Shown in pieces: positions 6,136 through 49,300 of a stretch of DNA of 64,000 nt; within the stretch, counting starts at the first letter, position 1, and the number at the start of each line of letters is the position of its first letter. The DNA is from Siderastrea siderea. Its lineage: Eukaryota; Cnidaria; Anthozoa; Scleractinia; Rhizangiidae. Location: positions 15,677,453-15,741,452 of the forward strand of contig OZ034978.1 of NCBI GenBank assembly GCA_964030785.1, given 5' to 3'. The notes below the pieces were generated by a model. The model made no database searches. It was not told the DNA's origin and was given only the letters and a program-made list of their open reading frames with translations. The position numbers and the translations under genes were made by a program.

Positions 6136-9100
6136 TTACATGCGGGTTGAGCTCTGTCCTGCTGAACTGAATGTTCCGTTAGCTTGAGATGAAATAACCG
6201 TTAGTTGTTCTTGCAGTTTGCTGACTTCTCGAACCAACTGTCCCAGTTTGTCCTCGACTTCTTTGAGGTTGCCTTTGACGGAGATGGGGTGGACCGTAAC
6301 CTCCTTCATATCGATTTCCTCTAAAATAGAATCGAAATATGTTAGGTTATGGAGCAAAAAAAGGATGGATCATCCCTTTCAAAATTGGCAAATAGTATTT
6401 TATGCACATTATTGAGTCCTCGTGTTAAAAAGTACCGCTGAAGACAAACATTTCAGTTAAATTATTTACTTGTGAAAAAAGTCGTAATCTGTGTGTAACT
6501 AATATTCACTACTGACCAGGCGCTAAGGCCTTAAAGGGAACAGTATTTGTGAGTGAGAACACTAGTATTTGTGAGTGTTTTACTTCCATCCCTCACAACT
6601 GCCTGTTTAGTCTTTATAATCAACGTTCTTCATGATCAGCGGTCTTGTCGGCGGTAACTCGAGAAAAGGACCATTACAACTTGAGAAGAACGATGACACA
6701 GTTGAATCGAGTGAATCAATGTTTTCGGTTTCTTTTTCGGCACCCAAGTGAATCAATCATTGTTTTCAGTTTCTTTTGTGGCAACTGGGCTGTTTCGGGA
6801 GCCTTTCACTGTCCTCAGCGTCGGCTCATAAGAGTCTCAGCTAAACAGATTCAACGTCATCCCGAACATTGTTGAGAACAACTTTGTTGTAGGAGCGCTT
6901 AATGGTAATAGAATTTTGCTGAACACCATTGCCAATTATTCAAATCATTGAACTTGCCGAATTGAAAGATGTTGAGCGCTGTCGGATGGAAATGTAAATA
7001 CGTTTGGCCGGGATCTAACATTTAGCTCGAGCTACATTATTCAGTGCAAAAAGCTCATTAAGTAGTTATTTGAATTTTATAAATGAATGTACATGCCAAC
7101 GAACCAATTGATTAATTGATTCATACCTTCGCTGCTTCGGACCTTTTTCGTGTCCCTCCACAGTTTTCTGTACATAAGTTCCGCTATGACCCCGAGTAAA
7201 ACAAGGCCAAGGAAAACGCCCATAATAACCAACAGGAAGCGTTGTGTGGCCTTCGATTTACCAGAAAAGATACTTGTCGAGTCACTGTCCTCGTTGTAAG
7301 CCTTCGGAAGAGAAGAAATAGTAAGTCATGAACAGGGGAAAAGGATCATAAATCCTACAGACTACCTAAATTTGGGTGAGAAAGGTGAGGGTGAAATTAT
7401 CTCACTTTGTCATCTCAGGATTGGGTATATAGCATCTTTGACAGTGACAATTCGGTCATTTTTGTACCAGCTGAGACTAGCGTAAATATGGTTCCCATAG
7501 ACATACTGTGGTCTAATCAATTTAGGGTATTTCAAGGTATCAGTCTGGTGTATCCAGTACTCTCCTCCTCAGCCAACTACTGATATCGCGAAAACATTGT
7601 GCTTTTTAGGCTTTTGCAGATCGATAGCACCAGGAACAGTGATTATTTAGCGGTTCCGATAAGGCAAGGGCTGAATTCAGGGAGCAAATTGTTGTGGTGG
7701 GAAGACATGGGATAGCAATGGGGGGCGATCTGCACCGTTTGCAACAAGCAAGCAATAGATAACGGACGTAAACAATAGCCATGAAAACAGCAGAGGTGCA
7801 GGTTGTCAGGGACCACGCAATGAAAATAGAGGTTTAGAACAGGCGCAGATCAACCGAGGAGTAATGGGGCCAGTCTGTAAAGACAGGAAAATCACAACGG
7901 GAAGGTATTTTAAGATTTCATCCACGGATTCAACGTTAGAATCACCTTTACAGCAAAATTAATAAACAGCACCACAGGAAAGTACCGGTTAGTAGCCTTA
8001 TTTGAATGCTTGCACCTTAATATATTCTTGGCATCACGTACAGACCTTAAAGAAAGTAACAGGGTGCAACTGGAAATGTATTACTTCCCGTTAACTCACC
8101 GCGACGGGCTGTAGGTATTTCATGAGCAGTTCATCCACATCAAGTCTTTCGATATGCTCTTCAAAGCACGAATCGTCGCCCAACAACTTTGTAGAGAAAT
8201 CGGATTCAAGAATGGCTATATCGTACCTCACTTGTGCTGAGAAACTCTGAAACACCTTGAGTTGAGAGTCTTTGGGTTCATGATAGAGGTAGTAGGCCGT
8301 TTTGTATTTGTCCATAAAAACGCCGTCTATCTTATCTGCCTTGAGTTCACTGAACAGCCGTTCGACCGATGGGAAAGCTGTTAAAGGCATAGATTGACAT
8401 GTATGTCAGTTATTTATGACACTGCTCTCAAGCCAAAACGTGATATGTAAACACAGGTGGATAAATTGTCATTTGGCTTTATCCTTTTGTATTGCTTTCT
8501 TTAATTAGTACATTTGTTTTCATTTAGTTCCCTTTTGATCGTCGTGACGTGCGGCTTTGCCTATGTATCATGCCTATTTGTATGTATGTATCCCCACACA
8601 CGTAGTTAAACCTCTCTTTGCCCAATAAGACCTTCTGTCTCCCTTACGCACACATCAATGTTGACGATGATGACGATGACGATGGTGCTGAGGACTGGGA
8701 GGAGGGGATTAACCTGTAACACCCAGGGTAGAATGCTGTACACTGCTAATCAGACTGCAAGCTTTTCTTCTGCGTGTGGTTCATACTACTTAAAAATACC
8801 TGTGACATTGGCTCCTCTTTGTTTTGCTTCTAATTCCGCTGATGTATTTCTCAACACCCCAATCTAAAGAGAAAAAAGAAGGACGAAAAGAAAAGGAAAG
8901 AAAAACATTCATTGATTAAATCATTAATACCAATGCGATTAAGTGCCAATTATTCAAACAAAGTAGAGGAAAACCTGGGTCGGAGGCTAAACCCAGCTTT
9001 CTGATACCAAAACTCCATAATGAAGACCCCTTGGAAGTAGTCTAACGAATCGCGCTGTCCCAACTGAGACAGTGGCAACAGCTTTCTTAATTCCCGCAGA

Positions 9101-11584
9101 AACTTTATTTTAATTTTCTCTCTTCACAGTTTCATCCTACATGTATCGTGTTATATTTTGACCAGAGAAAACTGCCTTCTCTGGTTACTTTTGTGTTTCA
9201 CCGAATTATTTTGTTCGCGCCGTTTATAACAGATGGCTTTTATGTCTAAGACGTTCAATGCAAACTGCGGGCGACTTTACTGAAATTGGTCCAATCTTGA
9301 ATGCAAGCGTACTTTGACACCCCATTCTTAATTCAATTGACAGCGTGGTTGGAAAAATAACCCTCAGTCCTACAAACACACTCACACCCCCACCGGTAGT
9401 ACAGGGGGGAGGAGGTTGATGGGAGCCCCCCCTTGGAGTTTTGTTGTGCTTCAATATTTCGAAAAGAGTTTACCTTCGGTAGATACCCAGAGATGTGCTC
9501 TACAGTATAAGGCATATATTATGGGTTGTGGCACTGCTGGGGGCCTGTGACGTCATCCAAGATGGCGGCCTTTTTCACTCAAAAAGAGAAAACCTCACAA
9601 ACGGAGGAAACTGAAAATTTTGATTCTAGACACGTAGAATAAAACATAAACACTTTGCTGCTTTTTGTCGATATTTTGTGGTTGCTTTACTGAAATAAGG
9701 TGAAAACGTGCATTTTTATTCAGAAATAGCCTGACCGCCCACTACTTATAACGTCATATCTCTTAACCATAGCAACCGATTCTCACGAAGTGTGTATCGA
9801 GATGTGTACAAGGAATATGCTGAAAACGGCAGGTGCTGATAAAGAATCAATCGTCTTGAAAAAATCCATTCCCCCAACCCACATGTACGTCCGAGGGTTA
9901 AGCAGCCACGTTCACATAGTTTTAAGTGATTTTTACTTACCGATTTTCCTTCTACCGCTGCCAGGTCGCTGGCAGATACACTGAGCGCACTTGTGGCGGT
10001 GGCTGTAAATATTGCTATGACAACCAGGCCAGTCAAGATCCAAAACACGCCAAACACGCGACCGAAAATGAACTTCGGAGTCTTGTCACCATAGCTAAAA
10101 TTAATGAAGGAGAAAGTAACCAGGCTTAAAATCTTATTGATTTAAGTGTGTTTAAAAGCCAAAAAATACATTTGTATCAATGCAGGTCTTCAAAACAATG
10201 GTCCAGTTTTGGTAAAATGGCTATTCTCGCAAACAGAACCTATTGATAAGTGTATTTGGCAGAGGATTGCTTTGATGGAAATGGATTCACACTTGAAAAA
10301 GTCGGGGCATACTATTCTTCCTCATATAAGCATTGATTAAGAATAGTTTTCCTCCTTTGAAAATCACTTGATATTGTGCCTACGAGTTCTAGAAGCAACC
10401 CACATAAACAAGCTAAGAAACTTAGATTTAAATCTTTATTCCCCTCCAGGAAACTGTCCTTACCCGACAGTTGTCATGGAAACGAAAGCCCACCAAAAGC
10501 CTTCATACGAGCCTTTTGTGAACGAACGGGGAAACTCTTCTTCATTGAAGTATGTTTCCTATAGAAGAAGAAAAATAAAAAAAATGAAAATGTCCTTGAC
10601 TGCAAGTAATTGCAACAAAGCGATGTCCGTTTTGGCACCGTTCAGTGTGATGCTCCGATTCCGGCTATTTTTAATGATTTTGGTTGATGTAATTTGTATA
10701 TTTTGTAGATTCCCTGTCTTTCGTGATTTGAAGCCAAGGTTTTCAACCGGATTGTTTGTAAGTATGGTGATTGACCAGGAAACTAATTTTTGACCCTTTA
10801 ACCTGGGCTTTCTTTGGTTTTCTGAGCCTTGAAGCTATAATAAAGCTATGTCAATGAAACTTGAAATGTACAGTGCAAGGGAGAGGGTGATGTCATAATT
10901 TTATCCAGGGGATATTGAAAAAGCAGAGAAATTCACATTCTTTTGACGTTTTAAGCTCAGGTGATTACATTCCGAAAATATTCACCAAACGTTTCAATTG
11001 ATATCTATACAAAGTGGGCTTTTAATGAACAAAACTCTTACCAGAATCCACACACATATTCCAGATATTCCAGCCAAGAGAAGCGTAAATGCGATGATGG
11101 GCCAAATGTTGGTCATTAGGGCTTTCATCACGATTTCGTTGGCCTTGTCGTTGAAAATTTGCACGTCCATAATGAGCGAATATCCCGGGGATTCAATGAA
11201 TTCTAAAATTCTCAAAGGTGGCCCGGAATAGCTGTCACTAGTCAGCCACATCTTCAGTGGTCGTGATATGGGGAAGGCTATTTCTGACTCGTTGTCTGCT
11301 ATGGATTTCAAGAAACTCTGGGTGCTGTTGAACAATGTATCTTGGAAGGAATCCTTAGTTACATTGCATTTGTCCACGAAGCATTTTTTAACAATATGAA
11401 AGAAGAATTCTCCAAGTATGCCTTTCTCTTGACCGGGGTGTGGCAGGGTAAGCGGAGGCGAATGAAGGACCGATAGCCGAACAGGGAGACTAGGGGGACA
11501 AACAGGACCCGGAGGTGGACTTGGCATACTGGCACAACTCCAGATTAGTGCTCCTGTGATTAAAGTAATCGCGGCTAGTTTCAT
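6136..11584 (-). CDS. GluR0/AvGluR1-like ionotropic receptor with a potassium-channel selectivity filter, copy 1 (intact)
   Basis: Seven coding exons on the minus strand (11584-11042, 10558-10464, 10094-9941, 8863-8800, 8377-8100, 7301-7127, 6320-6136) have GT/AG borders and compatible phases, giving 497 residues. A signal peptide (1-18) precedes S1 (about 36-140). TM1 is about 160-181, the pore helix and filter 201-216 (GFWWAFVSMTTVGYGD), TM2 about 221-250 (ending FTATATSAL), S2 about 265-378, TM3 about 399-422, and a short heptad-like tail follows. The intron between exons 2 and 3 splits the first Gly codon of GYG. The layout is that of an ionotropic glutamate receptor without the amino-terminal domain, while TVGYGD is the potassium-channel signature. 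The predicted role is a ligand-gated K+ channel of the plasma membrane; the ligand is unknown. A voltage-gated K+ channel is less likely because there is no S1-S4 sensor and S2 follows the pore. Confidence 0.85.
9520..9790. repeat. Dispersed TGACGTCA-type repeat, intron of receptor copy 1
   Basis: The block runs from a GGGTTGTGGC motif, through TGTGACGTCATCCAAGATGG, to a second GACGTCAT followed by AACCATAGCAACCGATTC. Related blocks occur at about 22590-22830, 36580-36850 and 50130-50350, the first and third being duplicates of each other, as are the second and fourth. It looks like an old non-autonomous repeat carrying two CRE-like GACGTCA sites. Boundaries are approximate. Confidence 0.5.
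10145..10400. repeat. MITE-family relic in the intron inside the pore filter (copy 1)
   Basis: Shares an ordered set of short motifs with the MITE at 1408-1805 (AAAAGCCAAAA, AATGGTCCAG, GATGGAAATGG, ACTTGAAAA). The ends are degraded. It lies in the intron that interrupts the GYG codon, and the same relic is in copy 2 at about 37200-37460, so it predates the duplication. Confidence 0.5.
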
Positions 11585-16399: not shown

Positions 16400-18465
16400 A
16401 GTTTTAATTTTAACGCAGATTCTTTTGACCCAAAAGCGTAGAACTGTCCTTAACGCAGTCTCTGAAATAACGGACACCAAGTCTAAAAGTTTTAGTTCGT
16501 TTTTGTGTACGGTAGCAGTTTTTGCATGGCTCAGACCCTCTGCTGGAGTAAAAGCACCCATAGTGCCTAGACATCCGGAGGCAGTTATTTTTAGTTCATG
16601 ACACATTCAAGTAGCAGGAACAGGGAACGAGTTTCTTAAAGCAAACAAGAAAACGTTTTAATTCATCTGAGTTAAAAAAACCTCCATATTACACGTACAC
16701 ATTTTTGTCTTGAGTTTAACAAAGCTCGGCCATATTACATGTTTTTGAAAAAGTTCAGTTATCCCGTATTTTTTTCACTTAAAGTTACGTGATAAGGACC
16801 AACGTTAATGCATCATGATTGGTTGACCCTAAGTTTACTGAAAAATTCATTTTTTCATCGGTAACTTCAGCTGTCTTTAATATAATTGAACCATATATAG
16901 TGTACTTAGCCAGAAGGCCTGTTTAACACAATTGACAGTCCTGCAAAGGCTTATACAATAATTTCGGAAACGGATGTCATTAATTAAGGCAAATTTAGGT
17001 GCTTTTGCATCCTGTTAAAAAAAAAAAAAGCTTAAAAACTTTAAAATGTTACCCTTGAGTTTTTCCCTATATTACGTTCTTTGCATCTTCCTGAACTTTG
17101 CCCATATTTTAATCTAAATTTGGCATGATTCAGAACAGATGTCAGTTGCAACATCTCATTTCTCAAACAACAGAGCAAAATATACGCTGAAAACAATCAA
17201 AACAAATTGGTCTAACCTTTATCTCGGACGCGATTTAGTGATTCGACAAAAGTTCGATTTGTCTCTTAAACAAGATATTTGAAAGAAGATTATGTCATAT
17301 CTGCTTATTTCTTCTTACCTGCGGTGCGGTGAGAGTGCGATTAAACCTTCGCAGACGAACTAAGCATCCCGTTGCAAAATTCAATTTTATATTGTGATGC
17401 AAACAGCATGGGGCGTTATTCAAATCGATGTTGTTGTGACTCTTGGATATGCTTGATATTTTTGACTGCTATGGCAACGTTTCAACGCTTTAAGTAACGC
17501 CGGATTCCTTCAAACTCAGATATGATCGTGAAAGTAATCGCTTGAGCAAGTTCTGTCTTAAAAGCAACCGGAGACAAGCTGGGGCTGTCACAGTTTTTGA
17601 CTTCCTTTTATTGTCAATGTGAAAGTCTAACTGTTTGTATTCATTCAGCAAAAAATATTAATTTTTCAATTTCTTTAAATGTAAAAGGCCGGCTGGTGAT
17701 CTGCATAATTCAGTGAGTTGTGAGCACGAAAAGTACTGAGGATGGATATGAAATGGGATTTCAGTTAAAAATCCCAATCACCACGACAGCAAAAATAAAC
17801 TGCTACGTCATGTAGTAGGAATAGAAATGAGCGCTTCGAATTACATAAAAGATTTTAAATTTTATTGCCAGATTATGTTTTACTGTATAGTTTTCGTCCC
17901 CTGTCATCGCTGTAATGTTTTAAGTACAGGAAACTACAATTTTTAAAGCAGTTCGTTCTTTGACTCAAAGAAATAGAAAACAGATAAAATGTACGAGTTA
18001 AATTGTTTGTATTTCATATTATTTACCTTTTACCCAGCGGGTTGTCTTTGCCTATATATGTAGCAGGCAACTTAATTTGGGAAAAAGCTTTCTTAAAATC
18101 TCATACCAATGTCTGTAATATTACCGATTACGTCACCTCGTCATAGTGGGAAAGTGTTTATGTTTTTCAAGCATCATCTTAAAAATACCAGTAAATAATT
18201 CACTAGCAAATACGATATACCATGGTCACAATCCATGACGTGAGTCGGAGGCAATTCACACCGCTGAGTTTGTCTTTGTTAAAAATGGTGGCCGATTGAT
18301 CATGCAGATATGAATATAAACATAGAAATTGGCAATCACGCGTTTAAAGTAAAAATTATGTTACATTTTGTATTTGTTAACTTCAGGTCACAGGGATCAA
18401 GGGACCCTTGAAATGGCTTGAAAATTAGCCAGTTTCACCCATCGTTGATTTTTCGCCACAGCCTG
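16400..18465. other. Gene-free stretch, copy 1
   Basis: No recognisable coding sequence or RNA gene. From about 17200 this stretch is almost base-for-base identical to copy 2 (about 44600-45865), unlike the receptor introns. Confidence 0.5.
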
Positions 18466-18752
18466 GATGAATGAATGAATGAACGAACGAACAAATGAAT
18501 GAATGAATTAATGAATGAATGAATGAATGAAAGAATGAATGAATGAATGAATGAATGAATGAATGAATGAATGAATGAATGAATGAATGAATGAATGAAG
18601 GAAGGAAGGAAGGAAGGAAGGAAGGAATGAATGAATGAATGAATGAATGAATGAATGAATGAATGAATGAAAGAATGAAGGAAGGAAGGAAGGAAGGAAG
18701 GAAGGAAGGAATGAATGAATGAATGAATGAATGAATGAATGAAGGAAGGAAT
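18466..18752. repeat. (GAAT)n/(GAAG)n compound microsatellite, copy 1
   Basis: Alternating runs of GAAT and GAAG tetramers with a few GAAC units. Open frames of HSFIHSF or PSFLPSF type on the minus strand are by-products of the tetramer repeat. The copy 2 counterpart is longer (45866-46339). Confidence 0.95.
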
Positions 18753-21700
18753 GAAAACATTTTGTTCAACACAAAGATGACCCAAAACCTGTAAAGTTGA
18801 ATTTGCAATAGATGATTTTTTTCTCGTAGTCATATCCCCGTCCAGAATACAAGGTAGGTGAACTGTTTTTTGGCATGCAAAGGAAAGGCGTTATCTGAGA
18901 ACTTTTAAGACGACAGCAAGTTAAAATTCTTTTTTTGCAGATTCAGTGTAACTGCGATCTTGCGCTCAACAAAGTTGGGATAACGGTTGTTTACCATTTA
19001 CTTCAAAATTCCGAAGATTTCGTTTGGAATACAAACGGAACAGGATAAACTGGATTTTTCGAAAGGTAGTCAAAAATTCCCAAACAGGCCAGTTTCCGAA
19101 TGGAAATTGTTCGTTCCATTTATTTCTTGCTATCAGTTCCAGGTCGTCCGCCAACTTTGACCCGTATGCGTGGTTACTCAGCTTGGTTCCAGGCTTACCG
19201 GGTAAATTTTGGTGAATATGAATAGGACAAATCCCAAACAAAATTTCCAATTAGAGATTTGGCGTGCTGTTTACACAGTCAAACCGGTTTGCTCACGTAA
19301 ATTGTGAACACCAACGTCGCTATTAAAAAAGATAAAACCTGCATAGTGAAACCTGAGTTGAATGAAATGGGCTGATTTTCAAGTAATCATTTCATATTGC
19401 TTTCAGTAGGTCGCAATTTTGAGCTTATCATCATAAATTGTGTAAAGTGATGTTAAAACAAATAATGCTATGCCCCTAAAAGGCCAAACATATGCTTAAC
19501 GACAGAATTTCAACCCTTCCCCATTCCTTCCCCTAACTTAAGAGCTATCAGTGTCTCATTACTTGCGGACACAATAAATTTGTTAAGATTTTAGTTAAAA
19601 TGTTTGTTTTAACACAGATTTTCGGTGAAACATGCACAATGTTTAGCGAAAAGCAGCCAGTTGTTTAATTCTGTCACTTTTCTACAGTATCAGTAAAAAA
19701 ACTCCGTACTTTTAGAATTTCGGGTAAAATGCAACAAACAGCATAAATCACTCAAGAAACCTAGGCACTCGAAGAATGACGGGCAATGTTCGAATGGCCA
19801 TGCATATGTATATAAATTTCACCTCTATCCAAACTCCACGCAATCAGCTATTAATTTCAGGAACTTATGCAGTTGCCTTGTAATATAAAGGAGTCTGCTT
19901 TGCCATCTAGAAACTCTGCTTTCATTCTGAAGTTAAATATTTTGTGTTTTAAAAGACACACAAAGTCATTTTGCCCCACACATTTGGTAACTGTCATTTT
20001 CAAGGTTGACATTAAACCTTTTGTTTTCAAGAGTCCAATTTATAATGTCAATAAATACTCAAAAGACTCTTGATTGATATTTTATTAAGGAAAGTTCTCC
20101 TAACTAACAATTGATATCATATATACAACAATGAGCAAGTAAATTTGATAGAAAACATGGAAAATGGTGGCTTTGGAAACTAATTTATTCACGACAGAAG
20201 TTTTTAGGAACGCAATAGGGTTGCTCATGGATATTCATCTTTACCCGCAAAAAATACCCCAAAGGAAGATTAATTAATTACTCTTAGAAATGTAGCTCAT
20301 AAGCAACAGAAACATGCAGCCGGCCGAAGCAGAACATAATTTTTGTCTTTAACTGTGTGCTTTTTTTTAATCAGAAGTCAAGTACTGGCAGGAAAAAAAA
20401 ATTACTGTGTGATAAACAACTAAAAGTATTCTGCAGGCTTTCATTCTGTGGTTTCCTCGATAAATAATGAAAATCAGCTCGCCGGTTTTAGTCCGTGAAC
20501 TGACTTCGACATACACGGACATTGTTTGCACCTCACTTAGAATAATTGTTTCTACTAAAAACTCACGCTAAGGACAAACTGATCATTTTTTTCACTGACA
20601 CGTTTCGATCTCCAAAAAGTATTCTAAAGTTATTTTTATTACAAAAGTATAGAAATCCAACTAAAATAGCAATTTATTTCCCACTGTTCGAAATTTAACC
20701 CGATAATACAAAGTTAACCCAACCAAAGATGCCTTTTCATATCTTGCGATTGCTTTTCTTTGTCTGATAAGTAACACAAAATAATAATACTAACAACTAA
20801 AAGCGATCCGGGTGTCTTACACATTGTTCGGTGAATAATTATAGGAGTCATGAAAACCGGCTTACTAGATTTTAATAACTGTTTTTAGTTGCATTTTAAA
20901 TTCGTCCCCCGAATTTAAACAGAAAGTAATAAAGACATATATTTCATAAACGTTGTAAGCAGAACTACCTTACTTGAAGTTTGTTGTAAAAATAAAACAA
21001 TGCTTTTTTATAATCCTTGACGGGCGGTTGTCAATTAACGCCTTCTTTGCAGGAGAAAAGCTTTTGTACGATTTGATTAGCTTTCTTCTTTCCTTTTTCT
21101 TAAGTTAATTTTAACAGCTTTTCTCGTTATCTTTGCGAAAAGAAGGTGATTTTAATAAAGGATATTTCATAAAAAAGATTAGCAGCTAGATATGGCGGTG
21201 CCCGTAGGCAAAGAAAATAAAAGCTTGATTATTTATTAACCGAAGACAGTTTTCGTTTCGTGTCAGTTTTGAGGTTGCAGCCAGCTCCTGAAAAGCGAAA
21301 AGAACGCTTCATTCGGTAAGTACCTCAAAACGTGCTCTAAAATTGACAACATTTTTTTTCTTTCTAGTGCGTAATCATTACGCCATAGAGAACCTGTAGT
21401 TATTTTAAGTTCCCTTTAAATAGTTTTGAACAACAAGAGGTTAATACAGTATGAAGGTTATCCTTTCCGTTTAAAAATTTATTGAGAGAAATATTTCCTT
21501 TCATCTTTTCCAATATCCTTAAATTTCCACAAGCTAACAAATGAGTACTTTTGAAATCAACGCAATGTAGTTACCATTTCAAGTTTGCTCAACAAAAGTC
21601 GATAACAATCAGTATCCGAGACATTCCTTCTTACAAAACTTTAAGACGTAAAATCTACATTATAATAACAAACAAAGAAACTAAAACATTTTTGCTAAGT

Positions 21701-31154: not shown

Positions 31155-32708
31155 CAAAACTCGGCGAACGCCACCGAACACGTGGAGACAAGGCGATAAA
31201 CTGCGATACAAATCTCTGCAGCCTATTCGATCGCTGAATCGCTGCGTGTCACGCTTCCAAATGACTTTTTTCAGCTATCGTTGCATGGTGATCACGTGGA
31301 AAATAGTCTTAAGGGAACTCCGCCATATTGACGGAGATGAGCTCAGTCTCTAACACAGCTTGCTAGAAAAAAAAATGTATAACAGTTTGTTTGTTATGAA
31401 GGTGCAAATGTCTGTACTGTTAAACCGCAAGGTATAGCCTTATCTGCCACGCAGGGTGCTGCTCGTGTTTACATGGCGGTTACATGCGGGATGAGTTCTG
31501 TCCTGCTGAACTGAATGTTCTGTTAGCTTGAGATGAAATAACTATTAGTTGTTCTTGCAGTTTGCTGACTTCTCGAACCAACTGTCCCAGTTTGTCCTCG
31601 ACTTCTTTGAGGTTGCCTTTGACGGAGATGGGCTGGACCCTAACCCCCTTCATGTCGGTTTCCTCTAAAATAGAATTAAAATAGAATTAAAATAGAATTA
31701 GAAAGGATGGATCATCCCTTTCAAAACTGGCAAATAGTATTTTATCCAATTATTGGGTCCTCGTGTTCTGAAAAGTACCGCTGAAGACAAACATTTCAGT
31801 TGAATTATTTACTTGTGAAAAAGCTCGTAATCTGCATGTAGCTGATATTCACTAGTGACCAGGCGCTAAGGCCTAAAAGGGAACAACGCACTGAATCACT
31901 AGTATCTGTGAGTGTTTTACTTCCATCCCTCAGAACTGCATCTTTAGTCTTTTTAATCAACGTTCTTCATGATCAGCGTAACTCGAAAAAAGGACCATTG
32001 CAGCTTGAGAAGAACGATGATTCAGCTGAATCAAGTGAATCAATCATTGTTTTCGGTTTCTCTTTCGGCACTCAAGTGAATCAATCATTGTTTTCAGTTT
32101 CTTTTTCGGCAACTGGGCTGTTTAGGCAGCCTTTCACTGTCTTCAGCTTCGGCTCATAAGAGTCTCGGTCAAACATATTCAACACCATCCCGAACATCGT
32201 TAAGAACAACTTTGTTGTAGGAATGCTTGATGGTAATAGAACTTTGCTGAACACCATTAACAATTATTCAAAATTATTTAACTTGCCGAATTGAACTGTG
32301 TTGAGCGATGTAGGATAAAAAAGTAAATACGTTTGGCCGGGACCTAACATTTACCTGGAGTTACATTATTCTGTGCAAAAAGCTCATTCAGTAGTTATTT
32401 GAATTTTATAAATGAATGAAAGTACCAACCTGACCAATTGATTAATTAATTCATACCTTCGCCCCTCATACCTTTGTCCCTCCACAGTTTTCTGTGCATA
32501 AGTTCCGCTATGACCCCGAGTAAAACAAGGCCAAGGAAAACGCCCATAGTAACCAACAGGAAGCGCTGAGTAGCTTTTGATTTACCAGAAAAGAGACTTG
32601 TGGAGTCAGTGTCCTCACTGTAAGCCTTCGGAAGAAAAGAAATAGTAAGACATGAAAAGGTGAAGAGGGTAGGAAATCCTACGGACTACATACACTTGGT
32701 CACACTTG

Positions 32709-33696
32709 GATCGTGTCTAAAAGTACACACGAGTGACCACGAGTGACCACGAGTGACCACGAGTGACCACGAGTGACCACGAGTGACCATGAGTGACCAC
32801 GAGTGACCACGAGTGACCACGAGTGACCACGAGTGACCACGAGTGACCACGAGTGACCACGAGTAGACCACGAGTGACCACGAGTGACCACGAGTGACCA
32901 CGAGTGACCACGAGTGAGAATGCATCAAAATATTTTGCTGATGTCATGCTGACGTCGTCTTTACATCATTTTATCAAATAATCGTTATTTCACGGCAAAC
33001 TGACCGTTTCTTGACAACTTAATACCTGGATTCGACTTTTCCGCCATTTCTGACTGAATGGGGGAGGGGCTAAGGGACAGACGGGGAGGGGGGATGGGGG
33101 CTACAAACTTCCCACCACCCGCACCCTTTAATCTCGGTTCCCCGCCAGTTCTCGTTAAAATAGTTCCTTAAATCATGTACTTTCACAGAAAACCTTTTTG
33201 TTAATTTTTATATTTGTCATTTTCACCTTCTTTCTTTCTTTTTTTTCGCCCCTGGTCACTGGTAGCCTTCGAAAGGGGGGGGGGGGGGTAGGGAGGTGGA
33301 CAGAATTTAAGACTCCGGGTAGAAAAGAGTGAGGGAGGTGTACGGCAGGCAGAATAAAGGGCGGGAAGAAAAAGTTAAGAAAAGTGGCGGGAACCAAGAT
33401 TAAAGGGTGCGGGTGGCGGGAAGTTTGTACCCCCCCATCCCCCCTCCCTGTCCGTCCCTTAGCCCCTCCCTTATTCAGTCAGAAATGGCGGAAATGTCGA
33501 ATCCAGGTATAAAGGTCTCAATAAACGGTCAGTTTGCCGTGAAACAGTGTTTATTTGATAAAATGATGTTATGATGACAAAGTATTTTGATGCATTCTCA
33601 CTCGTGGTCACTCGTGGTCACTCGTGGTCTACTCGTGGTCACTCGTAGTCATTCGTGGTCACTTGTGGTCACTCGTGTGTACTTTTAGACACGATC
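32709..33696. mobile_element. 988-bp foldback element with minisatellite arms and 9-bp target duplication
   Basis: The ends are perfect inverted repeats: GATCGTGTCTAAAAGTACAC at the left and its complement at the right. TCACACTTG flanks both sides (32700-32708, 33697-33705). Copy 1 lacks it. The left arm carries about 18 copies of a GAGTGACCAC unit (32731-32913) and the right arm a shorter inverted set (33598-33675). The inner arms also pair over a few hundred bases around a poly-G core near 33275. Foldback structure plus a 9-bp duplication fits a Mutator-like non-autonomous element; the open frames reading TRGHSWSLV come only from the minisatellite. Confidence 0.8.
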
Positions 33697-34242
33697 TCAC
33701 ACTTGGGAGAGAAAGATAAGGGTGAAACTATACCACTGTGCCATCTCAGGATTGGGTATATAGTATCTTTGACAGTGAAAATTCAGTAATTTTTGTGCCA
33801 GCTGAAACTAGCATAAATATGGTTTCCATAGACATACTAGCTGTGGTTTAATCAATTTAGGGTATTTCAAGGTATCAGTCTGGTACATTCAGTATTCTCC
33901 TCCTCAGCCAAGGACTGCTATCGCGAAAACATTGTGCTCCAGTAACGTTTTACGCTTTTGCGGATCCATAGCACCAGGAACAGTGACTATTTAGCGGTTC
34001 TGATAAGGGTGGAATTCAGGAAGCAAATTATTGTGGTGGGAAGCGATCTGCACCTTTCGCAATGAGTACTATGATTGGTTGATGAAACAATAGATAACAG
34101 ACGTAAACAATAGCCTTAACCATGAAAACAGCAGAGGTGTAGGTTATCAGGGACCAGTGAAAATAGAGGTTTAGAACAGGCGCAGATCAACCGAGCAATG
34201 GGATCAGATTGTAAAGACAAGAGAATCACAACGGGAAAGTAC

Positions 34243-34709
34243 TTTTGCTAAAATTTATCACAGAAAATTTTCCTGTGCCAATGACGTGTCTATGATGATT
34301 GCTGTTTCTATAGCAACCGTCTACTCAGGAGTGTATTTTGACTATTTCTGTCATATGTCAGTCTTTTTTTCAGTTTTTCCCCCTTCGTTTGTAAGAAGAA
34401 GATAATCCTTTTCTTTTGGGTGCTTATTTTGATTTTTCGATGTAGCTGTATGACTGCAGGTCGGGATTCAAGATGACGGCCTCAAAATTCAAAATGGCTG
34501 GTTTAATACGTCATTGTGAGGTCATAATTGTGAGGTCATGATTGACACGTCACAAGCCCAATCTGTTAAGCTAATGACGTGCTAAAAGCATGCCAAATTT
34601 CTTCACAAGAGCGTTAATAATTTTCAAGATCTATATATACTTTGATGTACTTTGTGCCTCCCCCCCCCCCCCCCCCCCACCGGCTCAGAAATTCAAAAGG
34701 TCCAGGCAA
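34243..34709. mobile_element. About 467-bp insertion private to copy 2, class unknown
   Basis: Copy 1 reads straight through (near 7904-7909), while copy 2 has about 467 extra bases between GGGAAAGTAC and AAGATTTCATCC. The insert has several GTGAGGTCAT/TGACGTG motifs and a poly-C run near its right end (about 34662-34678). No clear terminal inverted repeats or target duplication can be read, so boundaries are accurate to only a few bases. Confidence 0.55.
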
Positions 34710-34861
34710 AATAGGGTTAAGATTTCATCCACGGATTCAACGTTAGAATCACCTTGACAGCAAAATTAATAAACAGCACCACAGGAAAGTACTGGTCAGT
34801 AGCCTCATTTGAATGCTTGCACCTTAATATATTTCATCACGTGCAGACCTCAAAGAAAATA

Positions 34862-35162
34862 AGGGCCGATTAGACGGTACGACTTTTGCTTACGACTGTC
34901 TTATGCGACTTTTGTAGCGCGCGCTGCTCGCGTCAGGCAAAGATCGTATACAACTCGTCATTCTAACATTTTGATTGTGGCTTCGGCTGTCGTAGGGTTT
35001 TAAAACATGTTTCAAAATCCTACGACATTTTTCGTGTACTGTGCAACTGTCGTGAAGATGTTGTACGTCTGATTTAGACGACACGATTCGTGTGGTAAAC
35101 GTGACGTGAGGAAGTCGCATACTACAGTCCTAAGGAAAAATCGTACCGTCTAAATCGGCCCT
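34862..35162. mobile_element. 301-bp MITE with TA target duplication
   Basis: Left end AGGGCCGATTAGACGGTACGA and right end TCGTACCGTCTAAATCGGCC(CT) are inverted repeats differing by one base, flanked by TA at 34860-34861 and 35163-35164. Copy 1 has the empty site (GTAACAGG near 8056). The interior is itself rich in inverted TACGACT and GTCGTA motifs. No coding capacity. A TA duplication suggests Tc1/mariner-type mobilisation. Confidence 0.85.
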
Positions 35163-36579
35163 TAACAGGATGCAATTGTAAACGTATTACTTCCCGTTAA
35201 CTCACCGCGATCGGCTGTAGGTATTTCATGAGCAGTTCATCCACGTCAAGTCTTTCGATATGCTCTTCAAAGCACGAATCGTCGCCCAACAACTTTGTAG
35301 AGAAATCGGATTTAAGAATGGCTAAGTCATACCTCACTTTTGCCGAGAAACTCTGAAACACCTTGAGTTTAGAGTCGTGATAAAGGTAGTAGGCCGCTTT
35401 GTATTTGTCCATAAAAGCGCCGTCTATCTTATCTGCCTTGAGTTCACTGAACAGCCGTTCGACCGATGGGAAAGCTGTTAAAGGAATAAATTGACATGTG
35501 AAATTTAAACACAGGTGGATAAATTGTTATTTGGCTTTATCCTTTTGTATTGCTTTCTCTAATTAGTACATTTTTACTTTTGATCGTCGTGACTTGTGGC
35601 TTTGCCTATGTATCATACCTATTTGTATGCATGTATCCCCACATACATAGTTAAACCTCTCTTGCCCAATAAGACCTCTCTTACACACACATGTCTCCCT
35701 TACACACACAACCGATGTTGACCATGATGATGACGATGATGATGACGATGATGCTGAGGACTGGAAGGAGGGGATTAACCTGTAACACCTAGGGTGGAAT
35801 GCTGTACACTGCCAATCAGATTGCAAGCTTTTCTTCTGCGTGTAGTTCATACTACTTAGTAATACCTGTGACATTAGCTCCTCTTTGTTTTGCTTCTAAT
35901 TCCGCTGATGTGTTTCTCAACACCCCAATCTAAAGAGAAAAAAGAAAAAAGAAAAGAAATTAAATGAAAAATTCATTGATTAAATTAATACCAGCGAGAT
36001 TAAGTGCCAATTATTTAAACAAAGTAGAGGAAAACCTGGGTCGGAGGCTAAACCCAGCTTACTGATACCAAAACACAATGAAGACCCTTTGGAAGTAGTC
36101 TAATGAGCATAACGAATCGCGCTGTCCCAACTAAGACAATGGCAACAGCTTTCTTAATTCCTGTAGAAACTTTATTTTAATTTTTCTCTCTTCTCAGTTT
36201 CATCCTACATGTATGGTGTTATATTTTGACCAGAGAAAACTGATTACTTCTGTGTTTCACCAAATTATTTTGTTTGCGCCGTCTATAACAGATGGCGTTT
36301 ACGTCTAAGACGTTCAATGCTAGTTGCGGGCGACTTTACTAAACATTGCTCCGATTGGTCCAATCTTGAAGGCAAGCAAACTTTGACACCCCTTTCTCAA
36401 TTTAATTGACAGCGTGGCTGGAAAAATAACCCTCGGTCGTACAAACAGTCACACCCTTACCGTAGCACAAGGGGGGGAAGTTGATGGGACCCTCCCTGGA
36501 ATTTTGTTGTGCTTCAATATTTCGAAAAGATTTTACCTTTGGTAGATAGCCTGTGATGTGCTCTACAATATGAGGTATG

Positions 36580-36850
36580 TATTATGGGTTGTGGCGCTGC
36601 TGGGGGCCTGTGACGTCATCCAAGATGGCGACCATTTTCACTCCAAATGAGAAATGATCAAAAACCGGTGGAAACTGAAAATGCTGATGCTAGTCACCTA
36701 GAATACGACATAATTAAACACTGCTGCTTTTTGTTGATATTTTGTGGTTCCTTCACTGAAAAAAGGTGGAAACATGCATTTTTATTCAAAAATAGCTTGA
36801 CCACCTACTACTTATGACGTCATATTTTGTAACCATGGGAACCGATTCTC
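36580..36850. repeat. Dispersed TGACGTCA-type repeat, intron of receptor copy 2
   Basis: Counterpart of 9520-9790, with TGTGACGTCATCCAAGATGG and a second TGACGTCATA followed by GGGAACCGATTC. More diverged from copy 1 than the sequence outside the gene. Confidence 0.5.
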
Positions 36851-38739
36851 ACGAAACGTGTATCAAAATATGTAAAAGGAATACGTACAGCTACTGAAAA
36901 CGGCAGGTGCTGATAAAAAATTAATCGACTTGAAAAAATCCATTCCCCCAATTCATCTTGTACATCCGAGGGTTTCACATAGTGTAAGTGATTTTTATTT
37001 ACCGATTTTCCTTCTACCGCTGCCAGGTCGCTGGGAGATACACTGAGCGCACTTGTGGCGGTGGCGGTAAATATTGCTATGACAACCAGGCCAGTCAAGA
37101 TCCAAAACACGCCAAACACGCGCCCGAAAATGAACTTTGGAGTCTTGTCACCATAGCTAAAATTAATGAAGAAGAAAGTAATCAGGTTTAAAATCTCATT
37201 GATTTTAGTGCGTTTGAAAGCCAAAAAATACATTGGAATCAATACAGGTCTTCAGAATAATGGTCCAGTTTTGTTAAAAATTGCTATTCTCGCAAACAGA
37301 ACCTATTGATAGGTGTCTTTGGTTCAGGATTGCTAAGATGGAAATGGATTCACACTTGAAAAGTCACATACTGTCCTTCCTCGTATAAGCATTGATTAAG
37401 GATAGTTTTTCCTCCTTTGGAAATCACTAGATATTGTCTCTAGGTACTCTAAAAGCAACCCACATAAACAGGCTAAGAATCTTAGATGTAAATCTTTATA
37501 CCCACTGCAGGAAATGGGACCATCCTTACCCGACAGTTGTCATGGAAACGAAAGCCCACCAGAAGCCTTCGTACGAGCCTTTTGTGAACGAACGGGGAAA
37601 TTCTTCTTCATTGAAGTATGTTTCCTAAAACATAAAAAAATGCAAAAAGAATAAAAACGTCCTTGACTGCTAGTAATTGCAACAAAGCGATATCCGTTTT
37701 GCGACCGTTCAGTGTGATGCTCCGATTCCGGTTATTTTTAAGATTTTGGTTGATTAATTTGTATATTTTGTATATTCCCTGTCTTTCGTGATTTGAAGCC
37801 AAGGTTTTCAACCGGATTGTTTGTTAGCATGGTGACTGACCAGGAAACTAAATTTTGACCCATTGAACCTGGGCTTTCTATGCGTTAAATGAGCCTTGAA
37901 ACTATAATAAAGCTATGTCAATGAAACTTAAATGATATCGATGTACAGTACATGGGAGATGGCGACGTAATAATCCATGCGATGATGAAGGAGCAGAGAA
38001 GTTCACATTCTTTTGATGTTTTGTGTTCAGGTGATGAAATTCCGAAATTATTCACTAAACGTTTCAATTGATAGCTATACAAAGTGGGATTTTAATGAAC
38101 AAAAATCTTACCAGAATCCACACACATATTCCGGATATCCAGCCAAGAGAATAGTAAACACGATAATGGGCCAAGTGTTGGTCATCAGGGTTTTCATCAC
38201 GATGTCGTTGGCTTTGTCGTTGAAAGTTTGCACGTCCATAATGAGCGAATATCCCGGGGATGTAATGAAATCTTTAAATATCAAAGGTGGCCCGGAATAG
38301 CTGTCACTAGTCAGCCACATCTTCAGTGGTCGTGATATGGGGAAGGCTATTTCCGATTCGTTGTCTGCTATGGATTTCAAGAAACTGTGGGTGCTGTTGA
38401 ACAATGTATCTTGGAAGGAATCCTTGGTTACATTGCATTTGTCCACGAAGCATTTTTTAACAATATGAAAGAAGAATTCTCCAAGTATGCCTTTCTCTTG
38501 ACCGTGGTGTGGCAGGGTAAGCGGAGGCGAATGAAGGACCGATAGCCGGACCGGGAGACTAGGGGGGCAAACAAGACCCGGAGGTGGACTTCCCTTGCTG
38601 GCACAACTCCAAATCAGTGCTCCTGTGATTAAAGTAATCGCAGCTAGTTTCATCTTGAAGGCAGGACAATGAATCGAGCTGCAAGAAGAAACAAATGTCT
38701 AGTCCTTCCTCTTAGATGAGCATGTGAAGGTGACACTGC

Positions 38740-43793: not shown

Positions 43794-45865
43794 AGTTTTA
43801 ATTTTAACGCAGATTCTTTTGACCCAAAAGCGTAGAACTGTCCTTAACGCAGTCTCTGAAATAACGGACACCAAGTCTAAAAGTTTTAGTTTGTTTTTGT
43901 GTACGGTAGCAGTTTTTGCATGGCTCAGACCCTCTGCTGGAGTAAAAGCACCCATAGTGCCTAGACATCCGGAGGCATTATTTTTAGTTCATGACACATT
44001 CAAGTAGCAGGAACACGGAACGAGTTTCTTAAAGCAAACAAGAAGACGTTTTAATTCATCTGAGTTAAAAAAACCTCCATATTACACGTACACATTTTTG
44101 TATTGAGTTTAACAAAGCTCGGCCATATAAACATGTTTTTGAAAAAGTTCAGTTATCCCGTATTTTTTTCACTTAAAGTTACGTGATAAGGACCAACGTT
44201 AATACATCATGATTGGTTGACCCTAAGTTTACTGAAAAATTCATTTTTTCATCGGTAACTTCAGCTGTCTTTAATATAATTGAACCATATATAGTGTACT
44301 TAGCCAGAGGGCCTGTTTAACACGATTGACAGTCCTGCAAAGGCTTTTAGGAAATTCAATAATTTCGGAAATGGATGTCATTAATTAAGACAAATTTAGG
44401 TGCTTTTGCATCCTGTTTAAAAAAAAAGCTTAAAAACTTTGAAATGTTACCCTTGAGTTTTTCCCTATATTACGTTCTTTGCATCTTCCTGAACTTTGCC
44501 CTTATTTTAATCTAAATTTGGCATGATTCAGAACAGATCTTAGTTGCAACATCTCATTTCTCAAACAACAGAGCAAAATATACGCTGAAAACAATCAAAA
44601 CAAATTGGTCTAACCTTTATCTCGGACGCGATTTAGTGATTCGACAAAAGTTCGATTTGTCTCTTAAACAAGATATTTGAAAGAAGATTATGTCATATCT
44701 GCTTATTCCTTCTTACCTGCGGTGCGGTGAGAGTGCGATTAAACCTTCGCAGACGAACTAAGCATCCCGTTTGCAAAATTCAATTTTATATTGTGATGCA
44801 AACAGCATGGGGCGTTATTCAAATCGATGTTGTTGTGACTCTTGGATATGCTTGATATTTTTGACTGCTATGGCAACGTTTCAACGCTTTAAGTAACGCC
44901 GGATTCCTTCAAACTCAGATATGATCGTGAAAGTAATCGCTTGAGCAAGTTCTGTCTTAAAAGCAACCGGAGACAAGCTGGGGCTGTCACAGTTTTTGAC
45001 TTCCTTTTATTGTCAATGTGAAAGTCTAACTGTTTGTATTCATTCAGCAAAAAATATTAATTTTTCAATTTCTTTAAATGTAAAAGGCCGGCTGGTGATC
45101 TGCATAATTCAGTGAGTTGTGAGCACGAAAAGTACTGAGGATGGATATGAAATGGGATTTCAGTTAAAAATCCCAATCACCACGACAGCAAAAATAAACT
45201 GCTACGTCATGTAGTAGGAATAGAAATGAGCGCTTCGAATTACATAAAAGATTTTAAATTTTATTGCCAGATTATGTTTTACTGTATAGTTTTCGTCCCC
45301 TGTCATCGCTGTAATGTTTTAAGTACAGGAAACTACAATTTTTAAAGCAGTTCGTTCTTTGACTCAAAGAAATAGAAAACAGATAAAATGTACGAGTTAA
45401 ATTGTTTGTATTTCATATTATTTACCTTTTACCCAGCGGGTTGTCTTTGCCTATATATGTAGCAGGCAACTTAATTTGGGAAAAAGCTTTCTTAAAATCT
45501 CATACCAATGTCTGTAATATTACCGATTACGTCACCTCGTCATAGTGGGAAAGTGTTTATGTTTTTCAAGCATCATCTTAAAAATACCAGTAAATAATTC
45601 ACTAGCAAATACGATATACCATGGTCACAATCCATGACGTGAGTGGGAGGCAATTCACACCGCTGAGTTTGTCTTTGTTAAAAATGGTGGCCGATTGATC
45701 ATGCAGATATGAATATAAACATAGAAATTGGCAATCACGCGTTTAAAGTAAAGATTATGTTACATTTTGTATTTGTTAACTTCAGGTCACAGGGATCAAG
45801 GGACCCTTGAAATGGCTTGAAAATTAGCCGGTTTCACCCATCGTTGATTTTTCGCCACAGCCTGG
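43794..45865. other. Gene-free stretch, copy 2
   Basis: Counterpart of 16400-18465 and nearly identical to it from about 44600 on. No gene recognised. Confidence 0.5.
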
Positions 45866-46339
45866 ATGAATGAATGAACGAACGAACGAACAAATGAACG
45901 AATGAATGAATGAATGAATGAATGAATGAATGAATGAATGAAGGAAGGAAGGAAGGAAGGAAGGAATAAATGAATGAATGAATGAATGAATGAAGGAAGG
46001 AAGGAAGGAAGGAAGGAAGGAAGGAAGGAATGAATGAATGAATGAATGAATGAATGAATGAATGAATGAATGAATGAATGAATGAATGAATGAATGAATG
46101 AATGAATGAATGAATGAATGAATGAATGAAGGAATGAAGGAATGAAGGAAGGAAGGAAGGAAGGAAGGAAGGAAGGAAGGAAGGAATGAATGAATGAATG
46201 AATGAATGAATGAATGAATGAATGAATGAATGAATGAATGAATGAATGAATGAATGAATGAAGGAATGAAGGAATGAAGGAAGGAAGGAAGGAAGGAAGG
46301 AAGGAAGGAATGAATGAATGAATGAATGAAGGAATGAAA
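45866..46339. repeat. (GAAT)n/(GAAG)n compound microsatellite, copy 2
   Basis: Same tetramers as 18466-18752 but about 190 bp longer, with three alternating GAAG blocks. The long HSFIHSF-type open frames on the minus strand are repeat artefacts. Confidence 0.95.
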
Positions 46340-49300
46340 ACATTTTGTTCAACACAAAGATGACCCAAAACCGGTAAAGTTGAATTTGCAATAGATGATT
46401 TTTTTTCTCGTAGTCATATCCCCGTCCACAATACAAGGTAGGTGAACTGTTTTTTGGCATGCAAAGGAAAGGCGTTATCTGAGAACTTTTAAGACGACAG
46501 CAAGTTAAAATTCTTTTTGCAGATTCAGTGTAACTGCGATCTTGCGCTCAACAAAGTTGGGATAACGGTTGTTTACCATTTACTTCAAAATTCCGAAGAT
46601 TTCGTTTGGAATACAAACGGAACAGGATAAACCGTGGATTTTTCGAAAGGTAGTCAAAAATTCCCAAACAGGCCAGTTTCCGAATGGAAATTGTTCGTTC
46701 CATTTATTTCTTGCCAGCAGTTCCAGGTCGTCCACCAACTTTGACCCGTATGCGTGGTTACTCAGCTTGGTTCCAGGCTTACCGGGTAAATTTTGGTGAA
46801 TATGAATAGGACAAATCCCAAACAAAATTTCCAATTAGAGATTTGGCGTGCTGTTTACACAGTCAAACCGGTTTGCTCACGTAAATTGTGAACACCAACG
46901 TCGCTATTAAAAAAGATAAAACCTGCATAGTGAAACCTGAGTTGAATGAAATGGGCTGATTTTCAAGTAATCATTTCATATTGCTTTCAGTAGGTCGCAA
47001 TTTTGAGCTTATCATCATAAATTGTGTAAAGTGATGTTAAAACAAACAATGCTATGCCCCTAAAAGGCCAAACATATGCTTAACGACAGAATTTCAACCC
47101 TTCCCCATTCCTTCCCCTAACTTAAGAGCTATCAGTGTCTCATTACTTGCGGACACAATAAATTTGTTAAGATTTTAGTTAAAATGTTTGTTTTAACACA
47201 GATTTTCGGTGAAACATGCACAATGTTTAGCGAAAAGCAGCCAGTTGTTTAATTCTGTCACTTTTCTACAGTATCAGTAAAAAAACTCCGTACTTTTAGA
47301 ATTTCGGGTAAAATGCAACAAACAGCATAAATCACTCAAGAAACCTAGGCACTCGAAGAATGACGGGCAATGTTCGAATGGCCATGCATATGTATATAAA
47401 TTTCACCTCTATCCAAACTCCACGCAATCAGCTATTAATTTCAGGAACTTATGCAGTTGCCTTGTAATATAAAGGAGTCTGCTTTGCCATCTAGAAACTC
47501 TGCTTTCATTCTGAAGTTAAATATTTTGTGTTTTAAAAGACACACAAAGTCATTTTGCCCCACACATTTGGTAACTGTCATTTTCAAGGTTGACATTAAA
47601 CCTTTTATTTTCAAGAGTCCAATTTATAATGTCAATAAATACTCAAAAGACTCTTGATTGATATTTCATTAAGGAAAGTTCTCCTAACTAACAATTGATA
47701 TCATATACAACAATGAGCAAGTAAATTTGATAGAAAACATGGAAAATGATGGCTTTGGAAACTAATTTATTCACGACAGAAGTTTTTAAGGACGCAATAG
47801 GGTTGCTCGTGGATATTCGTCTTTACCCGCAAAAAATACCCCAAAGGAAGATTAATTAATTACTCTTAGAAATGTAGCTCATAAGCAACAGAAACATGCA
47901 GCCGGCCGAAGCAGAACATAATTTTTGTCTTTAACTGTGTGCTTGTTTTAATCAGAAGTCAAGTACTGGCAGGAAAAAAAAATTACTGTGTGATAAACAA
48001 CTAAAAGCATTCTGCAGGCTTTCATTCTGTGGTTTCCTCGATAAATAATGAAAATTAGCTCGCCGGTTTTAGTCCGTGAACTGACTTCGACATACACGGA
48101 CATTGTTTGCACCTCACTTAGAATAATTGTTTCTACTAAAAACTCACGCTAAGGACAAACTGATAATTTTTTTCACTGACACGTTTCGATCTCCAAAAAG
48201 TATTCTAAAGTTATTTTTATTACAAAAGTATAGAAATCCAACCAAAATAGCAATTTATTTCCCACTGTTCGAAATTTAACCCGATAATACAAAGTTAACC
48301 CAACCAAAGATGCCTTTTCATATCTTGCGATTGCTTTTCTTTGTCTGATAAGTAACACAAAATAATAATACTAACAACTAAAAGCGATCCGGGTGTCTTA
48401 CACATTGTTCGGTGAATAATTGTAGGAGTCATGAAAACCGGCTTACTAGATTTTAATGACTGTTTTTAGTTGCATTTTAAATTCGTCCCCCGAATTTAAA
48501 GAGAAAGTAATAAAGACATATATTTCATTAACGTTGTAAGCAGAACTACCTTACTTGAAGTTTGTTGTAAAAATAAAACAATGCTTTTTTATAATCCTTG
48601 ACGGGCGGTTGTCCGTGATTAACGCCTTCTTTGCAGGAGAAAAGCTTTTGTACGATTTGATTAGCTTTCTTCTTTCCTTTTTCTTAAGTTAATTTTAACA
48701 GCTTTTCTCGTTGTCTTTGCGAAAAGAAGGTGATTTTAATAAAGGATATTTCATAAAAAAGATTAGCAGCTAGATATGGCGGTGCCCGTAGGCAAAGAAA
48801 ATAAAAGCTTGATTATTTATTAACCGAAGACAGTTTTTGTTTCGAGTCAGTTTTGAGGTTGCAGCCAGCTCCTGAAAAGCGAAAAGAACGCTTCATTCGG
48901 TAAGTACCTCAAAACGTGCTCTAAAATTGACATTTTTTTCTTTCTAGTGCGTAATCATTACGCCATAGAGAACCTGTAGTTATTTTAAGTTCCCTTTAAA
49001 TAGTTTTGAACAACAAGAGGTTAATACAGTCTGAAGGTTATCCTTTCCGTTTAAAATTTATTGAGAGAAATATTTCCTTTCATCTTTTCCAATATCCTTA
49101 AATTTCCACAAGCTAACAAATGAGTACTTTTGAAATCAACGCAATGTAGTTACCATTTCAAGTTTGCTCAACAAAAGTCGATAACAATCAGTATCCGAGA
49201 CATTCCTTCTTACAAAACTTTAAGACGTAAAATCTACTTTATAATAACAAACAAAGAAACTAACAGATTTTTGCTAAGTAAATCTCAGAGAGGAAACCGA

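Follow-up and report, generated by a model that had tools for sequence, protein, structure and literature searches.

The window analysed here is a 64,000-nucleotide stretch of the genome of the coral Siderastrea siderea (contig OZ034978.1, positions 15,677,453 to 15,741,452; contig C13 of an assembly of 831 Mb in 402 contigs). It possesses a seven-exon gene on the minus strand (Table 1), a real, selected and spliced member of a widespread cnidarian family in which the plan of an ionotropic receptor is combined with the selectivity filter of a potassium (K+) channel. The family probably lets a chemical signal open K+ channels.

Gene layout, transcript and tandem copies

All six introns of the gene (copy 1) have GT-AG ends and compatible phases, and the joined frame runs uninterrupted to a product of 497 amino acids; the first glycine codon of GYG is split by intron 2. 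From the N-terminus, the protein comprises S1, a first transmembrane segment (TM1, approximately residues 151–186 by hydropathy), a pore loop carrying SMTTVGYGDKTP, TM2 (219–255) with its FTATATSAL end, S2, TM3 (394–426) and a tail, without an amino-terminal domain. The hydrophobic residues 1–21 are read from hydropathy as a predicted signal peptide. The filter, TTVGYGD, is of K+ type and lies between two helices. An earlier note on this DNA had proposed the same in-frame joining of seven exons, from signal peptide to tail, and exon ends, phases, frame and hydropathy all agree with it. The protein matches the Pfam models Ion_trans_2 (48.4 bits) and Lig_chan (31.3 bits, cut-off 30.8); the layout is therefore not due to chance.

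The pore loop and its flanking helices resemble those of Kv/Shaker channels (phmmer E 1.3e-10 over residues 173–243). Unlike these, the window protein has its pore flanked by S1 and S2, and the hydropathy plot contains no voltage-sensor segments ahead of the pore, only the hydrophobic N-terminus and S1 preceding TM1. A plain Kv channel is ruled out by the absent voltage sensor.

One of the relatives gathered by protein searches, P0001 (386 amino acids, 97% identical), matches the window protein from residue 112 to its end, uninterrupted over 6/6 junctions. Its source contig has 1,829 bases, against about 5.1 kb for the corresponding stretch of this genome, and therefore looks like complementary DNA. 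In this transcript-like sequence the pore exon is joined with those of S1 and S2, so that a refuting condition set in the earlier note, transcripts lacking this joining, did not arise. Chance exon assembly is ruled out by the splice ends, phases and open frame together with the P0001 alignment.

Two further copies lie in tandem. Nonsynonymous (dN) and synonymous (dS) divergence between copies 1 and 3 is 0.034 and 0.131 (1,380 bases compared), giving dN/dS 0.26; between copies 1 and 2 it is 0.039 and 0.131 (1,353 bases). A single residue differs in those portions of exons 2 and 3 that were compared. The ratio of 0.26 indicates that the protein is under purifying selection and rules out a pseudogene reading of copy 1. 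Exon 1 of copy 2 is broken by a one-base shift inside TM1; this copy may be a recently formed pseudogene or an allele, or the shift may be an error of the assembly. Copy 3 has a three-residue gap in S2 in common with copy 2, and apparently also a shorter exon 6. The shift in copy 2 might point to a decaying or non-expressed gene, or to an artefact of assembly and splicing, but this is hardly credible for a locus whose copy 1 is open throughout, whose copy 3 has seven exons open as read, whose dN/dS is well below one, and whose protein has an uninterrupted, nearly identical counterpart on a contig too short for genomic origin.

Table 1. Exons of the gene and its tandem copies, in window positions unless stated otherwise
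Feature	Position	Strand	Content	Basis
Exon 1	11042..11584	-	Residues 1-181: hydrophobic N-terminus (predicted signal peptide), S1, TM1	Open frame, GT donor
Exon 2	10464..10558	-	Linker and pore helix up to SMTTV(G)	AG/GT ends, phase fits
Exon 3	9941..10094	-	(G)YGDKTP filter and TM2 ending FTATATSAL	AG/GT ends
Exon 4	8800..8863	-	S2 start	AG/GT ends
Exon 5	8100..8377	-	S2 including the conserved acidic D308	AG/GT ends, residue placed by alignment
Exon 6	7127..7301	-	TM3 and juxtamembrane region	AG/GT ends
Exon 7	6136..6320	-	Tail and stop codon	AG acceptor, TAA stop
Second tandem copy	31483..38653	-	Main exon matches at 87-97% protein identity	tblastn, exon reading
Third tandem copy	72295-65117 on the window scale, just beyond the window end (locus L013, ~8295-1117)		Seven exons open as read	

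The cnidarian family, its predicted fold and topology

Three protein searches, each scoring about 8,000 candidates, gave 306, 296 and 48 matches, the first two being represented by the best 120 of 306 and the best 120 of 296. The gathered set comprises 203 proteins, of which P0001–P0180 are counted as family by score; the short-word preselection favours TTVGYGD sequences, and AvGluR1-like or GYG-less receptors may be missed. Animals among the rows listed with an organism name are cnidarians throughout, in line with the cnidarian-like origin proposed earlier, although this concerns named rows only and says nothing of absence elsewhere. The named genera are Oculina, Montipora, Stylophora, Pocillopora, Porites, Acropora, Nematostella, Actinia, Actinostola, Exaiptasia, Dendronephthya, Xenia, Paramuricea, Rhopilema, Hydra, Hydractinia and Clytia, which presumably span the classes Anthozoa, Scyphozoa and Hydrozoa. 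A subgroup 51–64% identical to Nematostella P0056 has members in Hydra, Rhopilema, Hydractinia and Dendronephthya. The picture given in the earlier note changes in that the gene is no lone oddity: it belongs to a multigene family across several cnidarian classes.

The filter is reached by 178 of the 180 members, as TTVGYGD in 172, TTIGYGD in one, S/A-TVGYGD in three, TTVGYGG in one and TTVGFGD in one (P0126); the sequences of P0010 and P0180 stop short of it. Some members contain additional domains ahead of S1, according to the domain accessions in the search listings, which we take to be CUB and Ig. In place of CUB-Ig, P0121 presumably has EGF-type repeats, and P0164 and P0177 FN3-type domains.

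AlphaFold models of two distant family members, the first of them 64% identical to the window protein, predict a periplasmic-binding-protein fold with a high-confidence clamshell; the bilobed fold around the pore anticipated for the gene is predicted in both. The models place the family in the ionotropic-receptor superfamily, as they predict a clamshell in two parts, S1 and S2, between which two membrane helices and a pore loop are inserted. The P0002 model adds a helix at 400–435 after S2. In structural alignment, GluR0 with bound glutamate is the first-ranked structure for both models; the match lists contain no Group 2 prokaryotic receptor, which is not counted against one. Foldseek matches with AMPA, kainate and NMDA receptors extend across 435–480 columns, and the clamshell and the TM-loop-TM-S2-TM plan are common to the family and to animal AMPA, kainate, NMDA and epsilon receptors. 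Animal ionotropic glutamate receptors (iGluRs) of these kinds have no K+ filter, a non-selective pore and a large N-terminal domain. The second full helix closes with a gate motif of the SYTANLAAF type: FTATATSAL aligns to YTANLAAFL of a coral iGluR, with T-A and the final L in common.

Counts of sequons and of pocket residues refer to the 152 members of at least 430 residues, out of 167 gathered at that stage. Sequons are enriched in S1 (285 vs 105 in shuffled sequences), depleted in the TM1-loop-TM2 region (17 vs 55) and at chance in the tail (76 vs 77). The enrichment in S1, together with the hydrophobic N-terminus and a basic stretch after TM3, suggests that S1 lies outside and the tail inside, so that the pore loop would enter from the cytoplasm. 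Both ends of GluR0 are placed outside, the reverse of KcsA, in the accessible part of a 2026 study (PMC13099474).

Putative ligand pocket and proposed gating

In prokaryotic Groups 1 and 2, an arginine contacts the carboxylate of glutamate and an aspartate its amino group, and both are described as totally conserved in the available portion of a 2010 survey (PMC2950845). Among the 66 bacterial relatives, the S1 arginine column holds R in 64 and H in two, and R is also found there in the coral iGluR; in the cnidarian family it holds R in only 2/152 members, with L110 in the window protein. A further 17/152 carry R 4–8 residues past an invariant proline, and the alignment may hide some arginines. 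The arginine expected of a glutamate or amino-acid receptor proper is thus absent, while the acidic residue in S2 is present, as D in 142/152 and E in 10/152 (D308 in the window protein). Because the acid is conserved and the arginine gone, the amine contact appears to be kept and the carboxylate contact lost. We therefore regard the label "glutamate receptor" as unsupported and probably wrong; as a first guess, the ligand would carry an amine and bind without the canonical amino-acid carboxylate contact.

The gene quite likely encodes a subunit of a ligand-gated channel of the ionotropic-receptor superfamily with a K+-channel pore, predicted to open on ligand binding. Subunits would assemble, probably as a tetramer, with S1 and S2 forming an extracellular clamshell. 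Closure of the clamshell by the ligand would pull on the TM2-S2 linker and open a K+-channel pore of inverted orientation, with its loop entering on the cytoplasmic side. As the filter carries the complete K+ signature, TTVGYGD, an open pore would allow K+ efflux and silence the cell.

Several points weigh against this model. Without the arginine, the clamshell might be inert or ligand-independent, or function might require assembly into heteromers. Pfam binding-domain models matched 0/10 excised binding domains. Bacterial binding proteins score within one Z unit of GluR0, so that its first rank among structures is a tie and shows fold, not function. Sequons in S2 are at chance (159 vs 163 in shuffled sequences), so that the placement of S2 outside follows from topology alone. 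Finally, copy 2 is interrupted.

The lost anchor bears on two other explanations. The protein could be a K+ channel whose default state is open, or one that responds to voltage, lipid or partner proteins, with the clamshell serving as a non-binding scaffold or assembly domain. Such a role would explain the missing arginine and a pocket region that is highly variable beyond a few conserved positions, and the PDB sequence that best matches the whole protein is the Shaker pore. We consider it unlikely in view of an acidic pocket residue in 152/152 members, a confidently predicted clamshell in two distant ones and a pore with no voltage-sensor segments ahead of it.

It is also unlikely that the family is an ordinary glutamate- or glycine-gated K+ channel like GluR0 and AvGluR1, in which another residue makes the carboxylate contact. 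Some members have lysine in the anchor column or beside it (29/152 at 117, 42/152 at 118), which could provide such a contact, and the first-ranked structure is glutamate-bound. However, no single basic residue is conserved, the column two residues beyond the anchor is acidic in 80/152, and prokaryotic Groups 1 and 2 conserve without exception the arginine-aspartate pair that the family breaks.

Kinship, origin and significance

A profile of ten excised binding domains, with the pore removed, finds AncQR, a reconstructed ancestral binding protein, as its best match in the PDB (E 2e-06), followed by GluR0 (E 6.6e-06), with GluR0 of N. punctiforme at E 0.0012. Its 40 matches up to E 10 are nearly all bacterial binding proteins and include neither an animal iGluR nor AvGluR1, the rotifer receptor of Adineta vaga, which is described as amino-acid gated in the accessible part of PMC12226733.

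Prokaryote genomes scanned for TTVGYGD[RK]xP and GFWWAFV yielded at least 536 relatives, of which the best 80 were kept; 66 of these, with an open frame of 330–420 residues and the filter at 170–250, form the bacterial comparison set. A pore-less binding-domain profile of the 152 members detects 32/66 bacteria at E <0.001 (best 1.4e-13) and 65/66 up to E 10, against 5/335 shuffled controls up to E 10. Its scores reach 45.7 bits for bacterial relatives and 2.0 bits (E 3.2) for one coral iGluR sequence. The halves behave alike, with a bacterial median of 8.95 bits vs 3.55 for S2 and bacterial 5.2 bits vs 2.6 for S1 (two coral pieces each). The bacterial set was preselected by similarity to the family, which favours bacteria, and few iGluRs were compared. 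Twenty further proteins ranking after the family in the third search (P0181–P0200; 345–391 residues) contain channel domains and PF00497, which we take to be SBP_bac_3. We read them as prokaryote-type GluR0 proteins, and 4/20 bear the title "polar amino acid transport system substrate-binding protein".

GluR0 (Slr1257, Synechocystis) and prokaryotic Group 1 follow the same plan as the family: S1, membrane segment, loop with K+ filter, membrane segment, S2. They differ in two respects. GluR0 is without a membrane segment after S2, as far as the available text of PMC11479355 goes, whereas the family has TM3 there; and Groups 1 and 2 conserve both arginine and aspartate (PMC2950845, accessible part), whereas the family keeps only the acid. 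By the available anatomy, the family would work like GluR0 yet, given TM3 and the lost arginine, is not a member of Group 1. In the coral iGluR of the same genome, the S1 arginine is present.

The membrane segment after S2, found in eukaryotic iGluRs and absent in GluR0, could indicate that the GYG filter re-evolved within an ordinary animal iGluR lineage, and the family profile does detect a coral iGluR over S1, pore region and S2, weakly (hhalign E 0.00085, probability 24%). This origin is unlikely, because pore and binding domain are both closer to bacterial GluR0-type channels: besides the binding-domain scores, WWAxVxMTTVGYGDKxP is largely common to the family and the 66 preselected bacterial relatives but not to the coral iGluR, few iGluRs having been compared. 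In an unrooted tree of 31 family members, 35/66 bacterial relatives and three coral iGluRs (two partial), with pore-loop columns removed, the family is one clade (Shimodaira–Hasegawa-like approximate likelihood ratio test, SH-aLRT, 100), with the bacteria on one side at a support of 1–2 only. With no root and such support, the tree does not separate retention from transfer; the sequences are compatible with vertical retention from a GluR0-like ancestor as well as with a single transfer into an early cnidarian. The earlier note had offered ancestral retention or a separate origin: the former fits, as does gene transfer, while a separate origin within animal receptors is disfavoured.

Large clusters of Pfam Lig_chan matches lie at C9:38.7–39.3 Mb and C13:4.4–4.6 Mb, corresponding to expanded iGluR-type genes in the same genome. 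Elsewhere in the window, simple repeat arrays on the minus strand (45799–46547 and 18428–18890) translate into long SFIHSFLPSF repeats, and a stop-free open frame of 1,134 codons occupies 54598–57999 of the same strand.

Protostome ionotropic receptors (IRs) have lost the glutamate-binding arginine and, to our knowledge, have no K+ filter. They are variant relatives of iGluRs, and a survey did not find them in Cnidaria, according to its accessible part (PMC2924276). Two 2025 papers, in the portions available, name GluR0 and AvGluR1, and no further protein, as iGluR-superfamily members with a K+ filter (PMC12226733, PMC12332018), and one of the two presents AvGluR1 as an evolutionary intermediate. 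Among the matches listed in a literature search that left bioRxiv and most subscription papers outside, we found no publication that presents itself as describing K+-filter ionotropic receptors in cnidarians, and none joining "K+-selective", "ionotropic glutamate receptor" and "Nematostella".

We propose tentatively, at slightly less than even confidence, that cnidarians possess a class of fast inhibitory K+-selective GluR0-type receptors. It would be a third class, phylum-wide and expanded, having acquired TM3, CUB-Ig, EGF or FN3 domains and a pocket remodelled for non-glutamate, probably amine, ligands, and serving chemosensation or synaptic inhibition alongside chloride channels. With members in several cnidarian classes, the family would turn ionotropic receptors with a K+ filter from a peculiarity of rotifers into an established gene family of animals, and would supply missing sampling on the relationship between iGluRs and K+ channels. 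With the arginine lost, the search for a ligand becomes open to direct testing. A 2026 study on inhibition in Nematostella treats iGluRs, in its accessible part, as cation-selective and excitatory (PMC13335744); the family would add a route of fast chemical inhibition seemingly uncounted there.

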